Assembly (NCBI RefSeq): GCF_024346355.1
Contig: NZ_JAGQCU010000011.1
Span: 1-64,000 of the forward strand
Direction: 5' to 3'
From: Cyanobium sp. ATX 6A2
Lineage (GTDB): Bacteria; Cyanobacteriota; Cyanobacteriia; PCC-6307; Cyanobiaceae
DNA length: 64,000 bases
Shown: positions 5,971 through 34,951 of the stretch, in pieces
Numbering within the stretch: position 1 is the stretch's first letter
Layout: every line of letters begins with the position of its first letter
Translations under genes and position numbers: made by a program
The notes under the pieces: generated by a model
Seen by the model: only the letters and a program-made list of their open reading frames with translations
Database searches by the model: none
Told to the model about the DNA's origin: nothing

Positions 5971-8900
5971 TTGGTTCACATCAATCAGGTCGAGTTGCAT
6001 CAGTTCAAGTCGTTCGGCGGATCGATGACGATCCCGCTGGACAACGGCTTCACGGTGGTCACCGGCCCGAACGGCTCCGGCAAGAGCAACATCCTCGACG
6101 CGGTGCTGTTCTGCCTGGGGCTGGCCAGCAGCCGCGGCATGCGCGCCGAACGGCTGCCAGACCTGATCAACAGCGCCATGCACCGGGCCGGCCGGGCGGC
6201 CGAAACCGTGGTGAGCGTGCGCTTTGATCTGCGCGACTGGCAGCCCGACCACGCCGAAGCCGGGCTGGAGGCGCCGGAGGAGGGGCCCTGGATCCACACC
6301 GGCCAGAGCGAATGGACGGTGAGCCGGCGGCTGCGGGTGGCCCCTGGCGGCACCTACGCCAGCAGCTTCAGCGCCGACGGCGTGGCCTGCAACCTCCAGC
6401 AACTGCAAACCCAGCTGCGCCGCCTGCGGGTGGACCCCGAGGGCAGCAACGTGGTGATGCAGGGCGACGTCACCCGCATCGTGTCCATGGGCGCCCGCGA
6501 CCGGCGGACCATCATCGATGAGCTGGCCGGCGTGGCCCTGTTCGATTCGCGCATCGAGCAGAGCCGGGGCAAGCTCGAGGAGGTGCAGGAACGCCAGGAG
6601 CGCTGCGGCATCGTGCAGCAGGAGCTGCTGGCCACCCGCCAGAAGCTGGAGCGCGACTGCGCCAAGGCCCGCACCTACCAGGAGCTGCGCGCGCGCCTGC
6701 AGGAGGGCCGCAGACAGCAACAGGTGCTCGGCTTCGAGGCCGCCCGCGAGGCCCTGCACCAGCTCGAACGCCGTGGGCAGAGCCTGCGCAGTCGCCAGCA
6801 GAGCGAGCGGGAGGCGATCGCCGCGGCGGAACAGACCCTCGGCGTCGCCGCCGGCGCCCTGGAGGAGCTGCAGGCCGAGGTGAAGGCCCTTGGAGAAGAC
6901 CAGCTGCTGAGCGTGCAGGCGGAGCTGGCGGGGCTGGAGGCCGGCGACCGCGAGCTGGCCCGCCAGGCCGAACGCCACCAGCAGCAGGCCGAAACCCTCC
7001 AGCAGCAGCGCCAGCAGCTGGGGGATCGCCAGGGAGAGCTGCGCCGCCAGCAGCAGGAGCTGGAGGCCGGAGACGACGGGACCGAGCTGGAGGCCGCCGA
7101 GGCGGCCTGCCGCAGTGCCGAGGCCGCCGTGGAGCTCTCCCGCCGGCGCCTCGGGGAGGTGGCCGGCCGCTCCGGCAGCTGGCTGGAGGACCAGCAGCGC
7201 CGCAGCAGCGAGCGCCAGCGGCTCAGCGCGCGGATCAGCCCACTGGAGGCCGAATGCCAGCAACTGCGGGAGCGCTGCCGCCAGAACGAGAGCCGCTGCG
7301 CCGAGCTCGACGCCGAACAGCGGCAGGAAAGCGAGGCCCTGGGCCAGGCCCAGGGGCAGCTGGAGGCCCTCGAACAGGAGCTGCAGCAACGGGGCCAGCG
7401 CAGCAGCAACGGCCAGGGCCAGGTGCAGGAGCTGGCCGAAGCCCTGGCCCTGCAGCAGCGCACCCGCAGCAGGCTGGAGCAGGAGCAGGCCCAGCTGGAA
7501 ACGGAGATCGCCCGGCTCGACAGCCGCCGCGAAACCCTGCAGGAAAGCCGCGGCACCGGCGCCCTGCGGGTGCTGCTGGAAGCGGGCCTGGAGGGCATCC
7601 ACGGCCCGGTGGCCCAGCTGGGCGAGGTGGAGGAGCGCTATCGCCTGGCTCTGGAGGTGGCCGCCGGCGCCCGCCTGGGCCAGGTGGTGGTCGACGACGA
7701 CGCCATCGCCGCGCGGGCGATCGAGCTGCTGCGCCAGCGCCGCGCCGGCCGGCTCACCTTCCTGCCACTCAACAAGATCCGCGGCGGCTCCGGCTCCAGC
7801 GCCGCAGGCGCAGCCGCAGCCGCCCTGCAGCGGGGGGGCACGGCCGGCGCCGGCAGCGGGCGGCTGGGGCGGGCCATCGATCTGGTGCAGCACGAGCCCG
7901 TCTACGCGGAGGTGTTCCGCTACGTGTTCGGCGACACGCTGGTGTTCAGCGACCTGGGCAGCGCCCGCCGGGAACTGGGCCGATGCCGGGCGGTGACCCT
8001 CGATGGCGAGCTGCTCGAACGCAGCGGCGCCATGACCGGCGGCAGCCTGCAGCAGCGCAGCGGCCAGCTGAGCTTCGGCCGCAGCCAGGAGGGCGATGAG
8101 GCCGCGCCCCTGCGCCGCCGGCTGCTGGAGCTGGGCGAGAGCCTGGTGGCCTGCCGCCGCAAGGAGGCGGAGCTGGCCCACCAGCTCGACACCCTGCGGC
8201 CTGAACTCAGCGGCCAGCAGCAGCGGCAGGCGGCCCTGGAGGCCGAATGCGCCAGTGCCCGCCGCGCCCTGGCCCCCCGGCTGCAGCAGCAGGAGCAGCG
8301 CCAGCAGCGATTGCAGCAGCTGCGTCAGGCCCTGGAGGCCGACCAGCTGCGCCTGCAGGCCCTGGAGGCCGAGCTGGAGCCGCTGCAGGGGCAGCTGCTC
8401 GAGCTTCAGCGGGCCGAGGCCAGCGCCGCCCACTCCGGCGATGCCGGCCGCTGGCAGGGCCTGCAGCACAACCTGGAGACCGCCGATCAGACCCTGGCCG
8501 CGGCCCGCCAGCAGCGCGATCGCCTGCTGGCGGGCCGCCGCGAGCGGGCGCTGGCTGCCGAGCGCCTGCGCCAGCAGTTCGAGGGCCTGGCGGCCGAGGA
8601 GCAGCGGCTGGTGGCCGCGGTGCAGGCCCTGGTGGAGGAGCGCCAGCAGTGGAAGGCCCGCCAGCAGGCGGGGCTGGAGCAGCGCCGGGCCCTGGAAGCG
8701 CGGCAGAGCGAGCTGCAGACCCGCTTCGGGGAGCGGCGGCGGGAACGGGATGCGGCCGAGGCCGGAGTGGCCGCCCAGCGCCAGCAGCTGCAGCAGCGGC
8801 AGTGGGACCTGCAGCGACTGGGGGAGGAGCTGCAGTCGCTGGCGGACCAGGAGCGCAGCGAGGCCCTGCGTCTGGAGCAGCTGCAGCGCGAGCTTCCCGA

Positions 8901-29353: not shown

Positions 29354-30299
29354 ATGACCATGACATCCGAGGCCAAGCCTGCAGGCCTGATCCAGCGATT
29401 CCGTGAGGAGCTGGAGGTGCGCCGCTATGCCCGGCGGACGGTGGCGACCTATGAGCAGTGGCTGCGGCGATACCTGCGCTTTCACCGGATGCGGCATCCC
29501 CGGGAGATGGGAGAGGCTGAGATCAATGCCTTCCTCAGCCATCTGGCCACGCAGGAGCACGTGAGTGCCTCAACGCAGAACCAGGCCCTGGCGGCACTGC
29601 TGTTTCTCTATCGCCGGGTGCTCGGCAGTGATGTGGGGAACCTGGAAGGGGTGATCCGCGCCCGAAGGCGGCCGCGCCTTCCCGTAGTGCTCACGGTGGC
29701 GGAGGTTCGCGCCGTACTGGGTCATCTCGATGGAGCCGAGAGCCTGGTGGCCCAACTGCTGTATGGCAGTGGCCTGCGGCTGATGGAGGCGCTCCGCCTG
29801 CGGATCAAGGATGTGGATCTGGAGCAGCGCTGCATCACCGTGCGCTGCGGCAAGGGAGACAAGGACCGGCGCACTGTGCTTCCTTCCAGCCTGGTGGAGC
29901 CCCTGAAGCGGCACCTGCAGGGCGTGAGACGTGTGCACCACGCCGATCTCGCTGCCGGCTGGAGTGCCGTGGAGTTGCCCCATACCCTGGAGAGGAAATA
30001 CCGCAACGCGGCCCGGGAATGGGGCAACTCCACGGCAGAACATCGAGGGAAGGCACCATCTCGATCCCAGCCTTGTGCAGCGCGCCGTGCGCGCAGCCGT
30101 GCAGGCCGCGGGGATCAGCAAACCGGCGACCTGCCACACCTTCCGCCATTCATTCGCCACACACCTTCTGGAGCAGGGAGCCGACATCCGCACGATTCAG
30201 GAGCTGCTCGGCCACAGCGATGTGAAAACCACCATGATCTATACCCATGTGCTGAATCGCGGTCCCTCAGGAGTTCGCAGCCCCGCAGACCTGCTCTGA
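29354..30299 (+). pseudogene. intI: Integron integrase IntI, frameshifted
   Basis: Tyrosine recombinase of the integron type, catalysing attI x attC recombination. The N-terminal SAM-like domain is intact, as is box I with the first catalytic Arg ([18 protein letters not shown]142). The IntI-specific patch begins normally ([18 protein letters not shown]). There the frame changes: the expected continuation (WGWQYVFP-like, family knowledge) is missing and the rest lies in another frame: RRHHLDPS-like start, [23 protein letters not shown], and catalytic Tyr in [10 protein letters not shown], ending at 30299. The first frame itself runs on to 30340. The protein is probably inactive unless recoding occurs. 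All other catalytic residues remain. Confidence 0.88.
29965..30037. repeat. Exact 18-bp inverted repeat at the integrase lesion
   Basis: TGCCGTGGAGTTGCCCCA (29965-29982) and its perfect reverse complement (30020-30037) flank 37 bp. The right arm sits exactly where integrase homology breaks and the frame shifts. The left arm encodes normal IntI residues (the SAVELPH region), so the right arm looks like an inverted copy laid over lost sequence, as template switching during replication would produce. Confidence 0.85.
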
Positions 30300-30464
30300 G
30301 GAATGGAGAGATCTTCCGCGGACCGCGTAACAATCCATGAAGCAGGTAGCGATCCCCAAGAAGCCTTGCTACAGCTAAACTGTCGAAAGTCGAGGAGGTG
30401 AACTCTCGCAGCTTATGCGACAAAGAATTGGCTGGCGCGAGCTTCTGTGGACTGCCGAATCACT

Positions 30465-30471
30465 GTTAGGT
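30465..30471 (+). other. attI-like core site
   Basis: GTTAGGT matches the GTTRRRY core and is the left boundary of the first cassette. Its exact complement ACCTAAC ends that cassette's gene at 31284. The region 30300-30464 between the integrase and this core holds no gene; accessory attI integrase-binding sites and the cassette promoter would be expected there, but I could not identify them. Confidence 0.7.
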
Positions 30472-30479
30472 ATCCAAGC

Positions 30480-31289
30480 GTGAAGCATCGATTGCCAGGG
30501 CCAGAAGACCTGACCGCAGAGATGCTTATAGAGCAAGTTGCTGAGCTCCGTGAGATTGGCATTTGCGAACAGGAACCCATTCAGCTGGCACTGGCGCAAA
30601 GCATTATCATTAACTCTCTCGGTGGTGAGTTCTGGGCAAGCGAATGTACTTCTTTCGGGAAGAAGCAGGAGTTCTTCGCACAGAAGTCTGACGTACGCGT
30701 CATTCATCTTGCACACGTGCTTTGGTGTCTAAAAGGGAGCCCGGGCTTCCACGACTTTCTCAAGAAAAACGATAGCAATAATTTTGAGTCTACATACTAT
30801 GAGGCAGTTGTCGCATATCTGTTTTACAAGGAGTCCTGCTCGGTTGAGCTGGTAATCCCGTCTCAAGTCAGGGGAGAGGATTTCGACCTCAGGATTAAAG
30901 GCTTCGGAACATATGCAAGCCTAAACGTCGAGGTTAAAGCTCGGCGAAACATCTTCCGCAGCCAAGACCAAGCCTTGAATTTCCTAAAGAGTCACCGGAG
31001 CCAGCTTCCCAGGGATATGAACGGCGCGATCTTCATCAAGTTAGATATAGGCAACGGATCCATCGATCAGGTCGCACTTATTTCTGCTACCAAACGTTTC
31101 TTGAAAGACACATCCCGTGTCAAGTTTGTCGTGTATTGCTGGGACGGATCCCCTATAGAGAATGCCATTGCTCTTGAGTATTGCGCCGTTGACTTGAATG
31201 GTTCCATGGGGGCGATACTTGGTTCGGCATTCCGACCAGTTGCTCCACAGTTCATGATTGATGCGGCAATCATGAACAAAAATACCTAA
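30480..31289 (+). CDS. Cassette 1 protein, putative PD-(D/E)XK-type nuclease
   Basis: A 269-residue soluble protein of lower-GC codon usage than the host. The central region STYYEAVVAYLFYKE then GEDFDLRI...LNVEVKARRNIF places an acidic residue before an ExK pair (about residues 145-165), the spacing of restriction-endonuclease-like active sites. The GTG start at 30480 lies 9 bp after the recombination core; an upstream GTG would span the core and is unlikely. The stop codon lies inside the attC core, the normal compact cassette design. A defence role is a guess; no methyltransferase partner is present. Confidence 0.72.
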   Translation: MKHRLPGPEDLTAEMLIEQVAELREIGICEQEPIQLALAQSIIINSLGGEFWASECTSFGKKQEFFAQKSDVRVIHLAHVLWCLKGSPGFHDFLKKNDSNNFESTYYEAVVAYLFYKESCSVELVIPSQVRGEDFDLRIKGFGTYASLNVEVKARRNIFRSQDQALNFLKSHRSQLPRDMNGAIFIKLDIGNGSIDQVALISATKRFLKDTSRVKFVVYCWDGSPIENAIALEYCAVDLNGSMGAILGSAFRPVAPQFMIDAAIMNKNT

Positions 31290-31370
31290 CATCATCATCC
31301 ACCCGGCCCGTTTCAGAATCTAGGTTCATTGGCCATGGTCCCTACGGGCGGGTGATGATGGGCGTTCGGC
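31284..31370 (+). repeat. attC site of cassette 1
   Basis: Core ACCTAAC (31284-31290) and core GTTCGGC (31364-31370) enclose an imperfect palindrome: ATCATC-C-ACCCG pairs with CGGGCGGGTGATGAT, leaving unpaired extrahelical bases on one arm as in typical attC hairpins. About 87 bp, in the normal size range. Confidence 0.85.
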
Positions 31371-31398
31371 TAGGGAGGTGAGTCGCTTCGAGGAGGCC

Positions 31399-31725
31399 AT
31401 GTCGATCCTCGAGGCGGTGAAAGAGGTGATGCGACTGCGTGGGTCGGCGATGACGGTCGCCGAGGTCTACGGCGACGTCATTGCGGCTGGCCTGTACACC
31501 TTTCACGCCGACAACCCGCACCAGATCGTAGCGGGCCAGATTCGCCGGCATTGCATCGGGCTCGTCTTCCCAACCGCGACCCAGTCCAAGCACTTCCGGA
31601 TCGTCGATCACAACAAGTGCTACTTCCTGGATACGCTGACCGCGGCGTGGTTCGATCAGGCGGGGTGCCGGGCACCGCTGGCTGCGCAAGGGAGCGCTGC
31701 CGGCGAGGGCAATGTTGTGGATTGA
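31399..31725 (+). CDS. Cassette 2 first gene: small winged-helix (HARE-HTH-like) protein
   Basis: A 108-residue protein starting MSILEAVKEVMRLRG (an in-frame GTG at 31378 is also possible). The pattern AMTVAEVYGDVIAAGLYTF ... IVAGQIRRHCIG ... KHFRIVDHNKCYFLD resembles the HARE-HTH/HB1-ASXL winged helix fused to restriction endonucleases and to RNA polymerase delta subunit, where it helps read DNA features. Here it stands alone near the left edge of a two-gene cassette. The C-terminal ~25 residues are Ala/Gly-rich. Function is inferred only from the fold. Confidence 0.6.
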   Translation: MSILEAVKEVMRLRGSAMTVAEVYGDVIAAGLYTFHADNPHQIVAGQIRRHCIGLVFPTATQSKHFRIVDHNKCYFLDTLTAAWFDQAGCRAPLAAQGSAAGEGNVVD

Positions 31726-31740
31726 CGGTGTGGGGTGAAC

Positions 31741-31763
31741 CCGCGGCCGCTGGCCGGCCGCGG
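31741..31763. terminator. GC-rich hairpin after the wHTH gene
   Basis: CCGCGGCCG (31741-31749), loop CTGGC, then CGGCCGCGG (31755-31763): a perfect 9-bp stem 16 bp past the stop. No T-run follows. It could end or slow transcription inside cassette 2. It is not an attC site, since no cores flank it. Confidence 0.5.
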
Positions 31764-31843
31764 CGGGGGAGCGGTGTGCTCGTGCGGCGGGAATGCGGCT
31801 CAATGGGGCCGGGGATCGGTGCGTGCGGACGGTTGCGGCCTGG

Positions 31844-31872
31844 TTGACAGTGTTGCACGCAGGGGCCAAGAT
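31844..31872 (+). promoter_or_regulatory. Candidate promoter for the 555-residue gene
   Basis: TTGACA at 31844-31849 is a perfect -35 hexamer; 17 bp later CAAGAT is a weak -10. The gene starts 67 bp further on, with a GGGGAGAG ribosome site. An internal promoter would let the second gene of the cassette be expressed regardless of position in the array. The weak -10 keeps this tentative. Confidence 0.35.
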
Positions 31873-31938
31873 CGGAATATCCGGTCGTGTGTGACTGGTG
31901 CTTGTACTTCCTACGCGCTGCCTGACTAGGGGAGAGAC

Positions 31939-33606
31939 ATGCCAGACATCAGAAGCTTCGGCCCCGATCTCATCGTCCACCCAGTCTACGACCCGGCAAT
32001 CAAGGCCTTGCTCAACAAATGGCGGCTTGTGCGGACGGCGCGGATATTGGTCGTGGTCGATCCCAGCATTGCCGTCGCACCCGTGCCGAACGGCTTCGGC
32101 ATCTCGCGCGTGATCGAGCTTATCCGCAACACCCGGATCGGCTGCCTGCGGTTCCGGGTCGATATCGCCCAGCGCGGGCTCGGCTCGCCCGCGGTGGTCG
32201 CCTCGCCTTCGCCGACGCAGCCGAAATACACCAATTTCCGCTTCAATATGCTCGATGGCGGCGCGGCCGTGATCGACCAGTACGAACAGATTTGGTGCTT
32301 CGGCTTCGAGCCCGACAACAACGGCACGACGAACGACAGCCCGATCATGGCTGCTGGCAATTTCCCCTCCACCGATGCCGAGCTGACCAAGCTCGATGAA
32401 TGGATGACGGAGAAGAAGGGCGGCCTGTTCGGTACGGGCGATCACCACTATCTGGGCGCGTCGATGTGCCACCGCATTCCCCGGCTCGGCACGATGCGGC
32501 GCTGGACCAATGCCGACGGGGTTCCGACCCAGTTCGGCACCACCCGGATCGACACGCTGCGCCCACCCTCGGCGGCGTTCGAGCCCGGCGCGCCCGGCGG
32601 CCCGCAATCCCTCGACAACACGCCGCATCAGGGCGACCTGACGGTGCAGCCGATCACCTGGCTGCCCGATGCCTCGGTGCGGATCTCGTTCATCCACTAC
32701 AAGCGCCGCCCGCACCCCGTGCTGTGCCACCCCGAGCTCGGGCCGATCAACGTCATGCCCGATCACGCCCATGAAGGCTGGTGCGTTCCCGAACCCGATC
32801 TTGCGGCCAAGAAGAAGTTCAAGAACGAGCCAGAATATCCCGATGCCATCGACGGCGGCGACAAGCCCGCGCCGCAGATCATCGCGGTCGGAAGCAATCT
32901 GGGGCATCCGCCCTACAATTTCGGGAAGGGGCCGCAGGCGGCCCGCGTCAACAACCCGATGATCTCGGTCTATGACGGGCACCGCGCCGGCGTCGGCCGC
33001 GTGGCGACCGACAGCACGTGGCACCACTGGATGGATGTCAACATCGACAACATCGCCATCGCCAACACCAATGATTGGAAGAAAATCGGCCGCTACTTCC
33101 AGAACCTGGCGGTCTGGCTCTGCCCGCCGGGCTTCGGCACTTCGTGCTTCCACGCGGCGGTGGTCTTCAGCCATTTCGAGGCCGTCGGCTTCCAGGAATA
33201 TTACCGCGATGCCCCGGTGCTCGAACTGGGCGAGGCGGCGCGCAAGCATCTCTACCTGACGCTCGGCCCCTGCTGGGTGTCGCAGTTCCTGATCGACATC
33301 ATTCTCGATTTCAAGCTGGTGAGGCGCGAGCTTATTCCGGACATCCGCAAGCGGCTGCCGGAGGTCACCTTCGACAATGTGCTGCTCGAACAGCTGGTGC
33401 TCGGCCACATGGTGAAGGCAACGTTCGACCAGGCCGAGGAGATCAGGAGCGCGGGCGGCGCGATCGAGAAGCTCCAGCTCAAAGAGCTGCCCGAACCCGC
33501 CAGGTTCTTTGCCGAGCCGATGAAGAAGGCGGTCGGCGAGTACCGGGACACGACGCGTCAGGCCGCCGAAAACCACCTGAAGGGGCTCGACATGCTGTTC
33601 AGCTGA
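31939..33606 (+). CDS. Cassette 2 second gene: large protein of unknown function
   Basis: A 555-residue protein, unusually long for an integron cassette. The start ATG has a good ribosome site (GGGGAGAG). The N-terminal half contains a Rossmann-like strand (TARILVVVDPS) and a KKGGLFGTGDHHYLGASMCH segment, recalling the elbow of class I glutamine-amidotransferase/ThuA-like folds, though no clear catalytic cysteine is assigned. The middle has several His/Asp/Trp-rich stretches and the C-terminal 120 residues look helical. Codon choice (frequent GCG, CGC, AAT in 'aatatt') and GC differ from neighbouring cassettes and suggest a proteobacterial donor. Family not recognised. Confidence 0.7.
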   Translation: MPDIRSFGPDLIVHPVYDPAIKALLNKWRLVRTARILVVVDPSIAVAPVPNGFGISRVIELIRNTRIGCLRFRVDIAQRGLGSPAVVASPSPTQPKYTNFRFNMLDGGAAVIDQYEQIWCFGFEPDNNGTTNDSPIMAAGNFPSTDAELTKLDEWMTEKKGGLFGTGDHHYLGASMCHRIPRLGTMRRWTNADGVPTQFGTTRIDTLRPPSAAFEPGAPGGPQSLDNTPHQGDLTVQPITWLPDASVRISFIHYKRRPHPVLCHPELGPINVMPDHAHEGWCVPEPDLAAKKKFKNEPEYPDAIDGGDKPAPQIIAVGSNLGHPPYNFGKGPQAARVNNPMISVYDGHRAGVGRVATDSTWHHWMDVNIDNIAIANTNDWKKIGRYFQNLAVWLCPPGFGTSCFHAAVVFSHFEAVGFQEYYRDAPVLELGEAARKHLYLTLGPCWVSQFLIDIILDFKLVRRELIPDIRKRLPEVTFDNVLLEQLVLGHMVKATFDQAEEIRSAGGAIEKLQLKELPEPARFFAEPMKKAVGEYRDTTRQAAENHLKGLDMLFS

Positions 33607-33716
33607 ACGCACAACAGTGCCCAACCGGATCTCTCTGGAATTAGGGCTTGCTGAATTACCCAGATCTATTGCGCCGCATTCCCTCCTCATCTGACCGCAC
33701 AGAGGCCATGACGGCC

Positions 33717-33807
33717 GCCGAACAATACCATCCACCTGAGCCGCCTCCATATAAGCCTTTGCTTTCTCCGCCAGCTCATTGCGGCCAGGCGATGGCAAGC
33801 GTTAAGC
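33717..33807 (+). repeat. attC site of cassette 2
   Basis: Core GCCGAAC (33717-33723) is the exact complement of this cassette's left-edge core GTTCGGC. The distal core is GTTAAGC (33801-33807). Inner arms pair as CCATC-CACCTG-GCCGC with GCGGCCAGGCGATGG, with a few unpaired bases. About 91 bp. The 110 bp between the large gene's stop and this site hold no gene. Confidence 0.82.
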
Positions 33808-33809
33808 GT

Positions 33810-34523
33810 ATGCATATCGTAACCTGGAACTGCAATGGTGCATTGCGCAACAAGCTCGATGCTTTAGACGCCTTGAATTTTGATATTGCCGTCATCCAAG
33901 AGTGCGAGGATCCTGGACGCTCCACGAGTGCTTCGTATAAGTCATGGGCGAAGAACTATCTGTGGACTGGACAGAATAGGCACAAGGGGCTTGGAGTGTT
34001 CGCTGCTCCCGGAGTAAAGCTTGCCCCTGTTGATCTTGATCTAGGCAAACTCGAATCGTTTCTTCCGTGCCAGGTTCACGATAGCTTCTTGCTCGTGGCT
34101 GCATGGACTCGGCAAGCAAACTCACCTACCTTCCAATACATTGGACAGCTCTGGAAGTTCATTCAAGCTCACCGCGCCGTGCTTTCAACTCAGCCAATGG
34201 TGATCGCGGGAGATCTGAATAGCAATGTCCGCTGGGATAAATGGGATCGCTGGTGGAACCACACTGATGTAGTCAGAGAGCTCTCGGAAATGGGCCTGGA
34301 GAGCGTCTACCACCGTAGTCGCGGAATTCCGCAGGGTTCAGAACCGGAGCCAACCTTCTTTTTACAGCGGAATCCTGCCAAGGCGTATCACATCGATTAC
34401 GCCTTCGCGCCTGTTGCATGGCTAGGTGACTGTTCAGCTTGGGTTGGTGAATCAGACCAGTGGTTGCAATGGAGCGATCACATGCCTCTCGTAGTTCGAG
34501 TGGATCTTCCCAATGATGCCTAA
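33810..34523 (+). CDS. Cassette 3 protein: endonuclease/exonuclease/phosphatase family
   Basis: A 237-residue EEP-fold enzyme (DNase I/AP-endonuclease/inositol phosphatase superfamily). All landmark motifs are present: TWNCNGAL at the start (metal Asn), IAVIQECED (metal Glu), VIAGDLNSN (catalytic Asp and Asn), HIDYAFAP and WSDHMPLVV (catalytic Asp-His). It is therefore likely an active metal-dependent phosphodiesterase; substrate unknown. The start at 33810 is 2 bp past the recombination core; a longer frame upstream crosses the attC and is not used. The stop TAA is inside the next attC core. Confidence 0.88.
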   Translation: MHIVTWNCNGALRNKLDALDALNFDIAVIQECEDPGRSTSASYKSWAKNYLWTGQNRHKGLGVFAAPGVKLAPVDLDLGKLESFLPCQVHDSFLLVAAWTRQANSPTFQYIGQLWKFIQAHRAVLSTQPMVIAGDLNSNVRWDKWDRWWNHTDVVRELSEMGLESVYHRSRGIPQGSEPEPTFFLQRNPAKAYHIDYAFAPVAWLGDCSAWVGESDQWLQWSDHMPLVVRVDLPNDA

Positions 34524-34630: not shown

Positions 34631-34951
34631 ATGCATCCTAAATTGGCATGGATACCTGTCCAGTTGGTGATGGTTGTCATCGGTCTAAGTGGAATAATAT
34701 TGGCCAACTCACGATTTGGAGGCGCGTTCTTCTGGGGGTTGCTCGTGGTGGTCGCGCCATTGGCTTGCGCCTATTTCATCTTGTTTCGGGTGGTTCCCGT
34801 CCGTTGTCCGAGCTGCAAGGGAAAGATGAGATTTCGAACCATCAGGCGTGGGATAGGCCCGGGATCACAAAAGGCAGAAACCCGGCTTCTGCACGGCTTT
34901 GTGTGCGCCAGGTGTTCCGAAGAAGATCTTCATGAGATCCCATTCAGCTAG
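34631..34951 (+). CDS. Cassette 4 protein: small membrane protein with zinc ribbon
   Basis: A 106-residue protein. Two hydrophobic segments (about residues 8-25 and 31-52) are followed by a cytosolic or periplasmic tail with two CxxC pairs (CPSCKGKMRF and CARCSEE), which could bind zinc. The stop is 2 bp before the attC core, so the gene fills the cassette. No family is recognised; small membrane proteins of unknown function are common cassette cargo. Confidence 0.72.
   Translation: MHPKLAWIPVQLVMVVIGLSGIILANSRFGGAFFWGLLVVVAPLACAYFILFRVVPVRCPSCKGKMRFRTIRRGIGPGSQKAETRLLHGFVCARCSEEDLHEIPFS

Follow-up and report, generated by a model that had tools for sequence, protein, structure and literature searches.

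How ordinary genes turn into integron cassettes remains poorly understood, partly because a chromosomal source can rarely be traced. This question is raised by the second cassette of an integron array in Cyanobium sp. ATX 6A2 (contig NZ_JAGQCU010000011.1, positions 1 to 64,000, the stretch of DNA analyzed here and hereafter termed the window). An earlier note, made from the DNA letters, had described this cassette as an unusually long two-gene cassette of probable foreign origin that behaves as a single unit. Cassette 2 (31365-33801, plus strand, 2437 bp) carries the two open reading frames that had been described, one for a small HARE-HTH-like protein (wHTH; 31378-31725) and one for a protein of 555 residues (31939-33606).

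The window, from a host genome of 3.0 Mb, contains a cyanobacterial tmRNA. The intI of the array (29354-30299, plus strand) is oriented like the array itself. On its 3' side follow four cassettes, whose attC sites end at 31370, 33807, 34607 and 35018, and then by a chromosomal gene labeled HtpX-like, a name read from its sequence. In one frame the intI matches TIGR02249 over positions 1-213 of 315, the remainder lying in another frame, and the break site near 30026-30032 has 7 nt compared to 42-54 nt in relatives, a deletion of about 35-47 nt. Based on this comparison, the array's own intI is a pseudogene, broken by a frameshifting deletion. Five intI-like matches were detected in the host genome, namely this broken copy and those on contigs C7, C34, C42 and C45, with the copy on C7 comprising 335 codons. 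Among 121 genomes of the family, 22 had intI-like matches, and arrays of this type abound in related genomes; the array of one related cyanobacterium (locus L068, genome G582) has at least 13 attC sites and includes a cassette of 2.75 kb between attC sites ending at 7162 and 9910.

Cassette 1 starts on the attI side at core GTTAGGT (30465-30471, plus strand), the R'' at 31284, ACCTAAC, being its exact reverse complement, and none of Pfam, NCBIfam, PADLOC and PHROGs convincingly matched its 280-aa protein (30447-31289). Cassette 3 (33808-34523) encodes a relative of exodeoxyribonuclease III from the endonuclease/exonuclease/phosphatase family (PF03372, E=9e-7); since its listed open reading frame opens at 33648, before the end of the preceding attC, the true start is probably inside the cassette. 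The small protein of cassette 4 (34631-34951) matches a YgiT-type zinc finger exactly at the cut-off, and the attC of this cassette is short (65 bp) with a poor model fit (14.7 bits).

Cassette 2 is a single cassette as judged by its ends. Its 5' boundary is the R' of the attC of cassette 1 (31284-31370, plus strand; detected by hairpin scan and, at 62.6 bits, by covariance model), and its own attC (33717-33807, plus strand; 21 arm pairs by hairpin scan and 67.9 bits by covariance model) forms the R''/L''/L'/R' hairpin of an integron cassette at the 3' end, with R' being GTTAAGC (33801-33807). The 5' core GTTCGGC (31364-31370) is the exact reverse complement (7/7) of R'' GCCGAAC (33717-33723) of this attC, as in a circularised cassette. 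The covariance model was built from 27 attC sites of related integrons and gave 67.9, 63.8, 62.6 and 14.7 bits for the four attC sites of the window, scores that are not independent as these four sites sat in the training set; the hairpin scan is independent of the model. A match between R'' and the cassette's own 5' core was observed for 27 of 44 cassettes of eleven arrays, cassette 2 included, compared to a mean of 1.9 and a maximum of 8 in 2000 shufflings of partners. Thus, the argument that the earlier note drew from the complementary cores is sound, and the core match vouches for the ends of cassette 2 only, not for its interior.

Within cassette 2 (31371-33716), no attC was found, the best covariance model score being 3.7 bits. 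The hairpin scan, which recovers the four attC sites of the window, likewise detected none between the two genes, and the degraded attC that might have split the cassette in two at 31726-31938 was not seen by either method. Cassette 2 is long, as claimed, but not unique in this respect, as it is one of 3 cassettes of at least 2.4 kb among the 44 of this array and related arrays. The arms of its attC are nearly identical to those of attC sites of related cyanobacteria, and by this likeness the ends and attC of cassette 2 are assigned to the cyanobacterial integron pool.

The gene for the 555-residue protein (31939-33606, plus strand, 555 codons), as judged from its DNA and protein sequence, clearly came from an Erythrobacteraceae donor. 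Its nearest relative, in a metagenome-assembled genome of Erythrobacter sanguineus (locus L002), is 90% identical in protein and 89% identical in DNA, with the DNA match spanning from the RBS at 31923 to the stop codon at 33606. In the tree, the window protein and that of E. sanguineus group together at 100/100 and are nested in Erythrobacteraceae; the next to join are two further Erythrobacter and one Novosphingobium, every step being supported at 99 or higher. At loci L002, L003, L004 and L005 the relative has pnp and a spermidine-synthase-like gene, both named from sequence, as its neighbors, and it is thus a resident chromosomal gene there. Nothing upstream of the RBS aligns with these four loci. 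The family is patchy in the Erythrobacter family (4 of 249 genomes) and was not detected in 291 other sampled cyanobacterial genomes. Comparison to L002 gave a dN/dS of 0.19 at a dS of 0.33, which indicates that its protein has been maintained ever since the two lines parted, although the donor lineage may account for most of this period. A phage or plasmid origin was also considered and rejected, as phage and plasmid records held no relative; the sole match on a viral contig was weak (28% over 198 residues). The foreign origin that had been proposed for the cassette therefore stands for the 555-codon gene, but only this gene and its immediate edges are traceable to the donor.

On the 3' side of the 555-codon gene, the order is stop codon, probable terminator remnant of about 34 nt, IS-end relic and cyanobacterial-type attC. 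The terminator remnant (33607-33640, plus strand), which probably stems from the donor gene, was detected by local alignment with L002, its one relative here, at a score of 27 that was reached by 2 of 300 shuffles. The Erythrobacter homology breaks off near 33640, close to the IS end. This end relic (33638-33678, plus strand, about 40 nt) matches the terminal 37-44 bp of IS elements of related cyanobacteria and is 81-86% identical to their repeated ends; the source IS is about 1.78 kb, has seven end copies in one genome, and encodes transposase domains DUF772 and DDE_Tnp_1_2. A second IS end was not seen in cassette 2, spacer included. Thus, cassette 2 is one cassette, but its description as a single unit of foreign origin proved too simple, as the attC and its flank are of a local cyanobacterial type, with an IS-end relic among them.

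The wHTH gene (31378-31725, plus strand) encodes a predicted DNA-binding protein of 115 aa from GTG or of 108 aa from ATG at 31399, the position equivalent to that at which a Massilia relative begins. Its open reading frame starts 7 bp after the 5' core, as in a simple cassette gene, compared to a leader of 213 bp for the 555-codon gene, and the wHTH gene thus looks like the original single-gene content of the cassette. The protein matched PF05066 (HARE-HTH) at E=0.014 and 16.2 bits, under the Pfam curated cut-off of 25.9. Over 70 aa it shares 50% identity with the N-terminal part of an endonuclease with HARE-HTH and Mrr_cat domains encoded by Massilia plasmid NZ_CP103373; as this relative is likewise under the cut-off (20 bits), a relation to HARE-HTH is likely and membership is not claimed. 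HARE-HTH domains have been proposed to be readers of DNA modification (PMC11037411), and the cassette protein may have a stand-alone DNA-binding role. Single-sequence structure prediction gave no usable fold (pLDDT 42). Relatives of the wHTH protein were rare, with 2 detected in 398 Pseudomonadota genomes (one marginal), none among 12 other genomes of the genus, and no match in E. sanguineus genome G292.

The spacer that follows (31726-31922, 197 bp) contains both the internal GC hairpin and the perfect TTGACA that had been pointed out. A 9-bp inverted repeat without mismatch (CCGCGGCCG-CTGGC-CGGCCGCGG, about 31740-31762) makes up the hairpin, though in this GC-rich stretch its fold is not above that of shuffles (z -0.92) and it has no T run, and a terminator or structured RNA was rejected for it. 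TTGACA is located at about 31844, and no promoter-like site was scored there. The spacer had no match in plasmid records and no convincing match in 120 other genomes of the family; two short matches in cyanobacteria, one of them antisense in a murJ-like gene, were set aside, neither being accompanied by a convincing wHTH relative.

A composition unlike that of the host (GC 0.67-0.70) and of the other cassettes (0.49-0.53) was confirmed for the 555-codon gene (0.641) and the wHTH gene (0.638) but not for the spacer, which at 0.695 is host-like. The GC of the Erythrobacter locus is 0.643. On the minus strand, an open frame of 818 codons (31342-33798) lies antisense to nearly all of cassette 2, and a 600-codon open frame lies opposite the relative in L002; these long antisense frames are probably an effect of GC-rich codon structure.

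How the two genes came to share one cassette was addressed by weighing four explanations. The reading that we favor, and to which we give roughly an even chance, is that cassette 2 is one integron cassette of composite origin, with cyanobacterial ends and attC, the wHTH gene present first, and the Erythrobacteraceae gene gained in an IS-linked manner. The original cassette would have been short and cyanobacterial, with a single small HARE-HTH-like gene. The Erythrobacteraceae gene, from its RBS to the first part of its terminator, would then have been gained between the wHTH gene and the attC, and an IS-linked rearrangement may have fused the incoming gene to the tail of the cassette. As the enlarged cassette keeps a valid attC, an integron integrase that is active could cut it out and move it, such as the 335-codon copy on contig C7 might provide. 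In favor of a composite origin are the end of Erythrobacter homology near the IS end and the cyanobacterial attC arms; counting against it, neither a wHTH-only form of cassette 2 nor a mobile-element relic at the upstream joint was found, and the match to the donor terminator is weak and comes from a single relative. In addition, the IS could have arrived after cassette 2 was complete, and the similar GC of the two genes fits a shared origin equally well. Such a shared origin would be explained by one-piece capture of the wHTH gene, spacer and 555-codon gene from an unsampled alphaproteobacterium, with a cyanobacterial attC gained and the IS landing later and decaying between stop codon and attC. 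Both genes, at a GC of about 0.64, are close to the Erythrobacter locus, and the actual donor strain is outside the sample (dS 0.33 from L002), with its upstream region unseen. By contrast, the wHTH gene was near none of the relatives of the 555-codon gene in 23 loci (covering up to 8 kb per side where contigs allow) and the E. sanguineus genome had no match to it, and the lack of alignment upstream of the RBS also argues against transfer in one piece, which we regard as rather unlikely.

The remaining explanations are less probable still. One open reading frame per cassette is the commonest arrangement (PMC8618304), and the 213-bp gap between the genes could have housed an attC, such that cassette 2 might be two cassettes fused after loss of the attC between them. 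However, nothing attC-like was detected there by hairpin scan or covariance model, although a clean deletion would leave no trace, and the exact match of the outer cores would require chance or an identical core in both cassettes; we thus judge fusion improbable. A toxin-antitoxin or defense pair, in which the wHTH gene would always be adjacent, had also been raised by the earlier note. Two-ORF cassettes are known, some of which encode toxin-antitoxin systems (PMC8618304), and the wHTH protein is similar to the domain at the N-terminus of a restriction endonuclease. The constant pairing that such a functional module would require was seen at none of the 23 loci, PADLOC gave no defense match for the genes of cassette 2, relatives of the 555-codon gene mostly stand alone, and the gene sizes, spacing and absence of overlap do not suggest an operon. 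This pair reading is thus largely disfavored, to the point of being very improbable, and the wHTH and 555-residue proteins may well act independently.

A more specific and tentative claim, with a less than even chance, is that a chromosomal gene resident in one phylum entered a mobile cassette of another through IS-linked joining to the attC of a cassette that already existed. Should this be true, IS-linked joining would be a route to long multi-gene cassettes without a new attC.

The 555-residue protein had no family match in Pfam, NCBIfam, PHROGs or PADLOC, and no Pfam match was found for any of 24 members. Its AlphaFold model (pLDDT 77.6) has an alpha/beta core (residues 32-399) and a C-terminal helical part. 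VIA-align placed the core with ThuA-like and class I amidotransferase-like structures, the best being 1t0b_A (Z 14.1, rmsd 3.4, 213 aligned residues). Foldseek gave no significant match to the model, and membership in the ThuA family (PF06283) by sequence was rejected, as hhalign to 16 ThuA domains gave a probability of 0.2%; with both of these comparisons negative, the ThuA-likeness is a statement at the level of fold and shows no function. The positions invariant in all 24 members include many His, Asp and Glu residues (D168, H169, D275, H276, H278, E279, D358, H362 and H363) and may mark a hydrolytic site of metal-dependent or acid-base type, and the model is consistent with a putative enzyme of ThuA/class I amidotransferase-like fold. 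A vanadium-chloroperoxidase-like gene was near the relative at L010, L012 and L014; as this neighbor is confined to 3 of the 23 loci, it was given no weight in proposing a function. Cassette 2 also draws attention to a conserved family of about 550 residues that spans at least four phyla (Pseudomonadota, Nitrospirota, Acidobacteriota and Bacteroidota) and is without a Pfam model.

Cassette 2 is a rare case in which the source of a captured gene is traceable, and with the source group, gene boundaries, local attC type and transposon scar all visible, one route of cassette making is directly testable. As two-ORF cassettes are known (PMC8618304), cassette 2 is of a kind already known; what makes this variant noteworthy is its IS scar together with a source that can be traced across phyla. 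Of its products, the 555-residue protein comes closest to ThuA-like and class I glutamine-amidotransferase-like proteins, as VIA-align superposes its predicted core (residues 32-399) on ThuA-like structures, but it differs from ThuA in having no sequence or profile similarity to PF06283, an extra C-terminal helical part and other conserved motifs. Likewise, the wHTH protein has the N-terminal HTH part in common with the Massilia HARE-HTH and Mrr_cat restriction endonuclease and differs from it in being an HTH alone with a short tail and no nuclease domain. As a whole, cassette 2 is similar to the cassettes of cyanobacterial sedentary chromosomal integrons in that it has an attC with arms like theirs, cores that match, and a place in an array that follows intI. 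By contrast to these, it has two open reading frames, a 213-bp gap and a length of 2.4 kb, and it carries an internal IS-end relic and a gene of another phylum with a traceable resident source.
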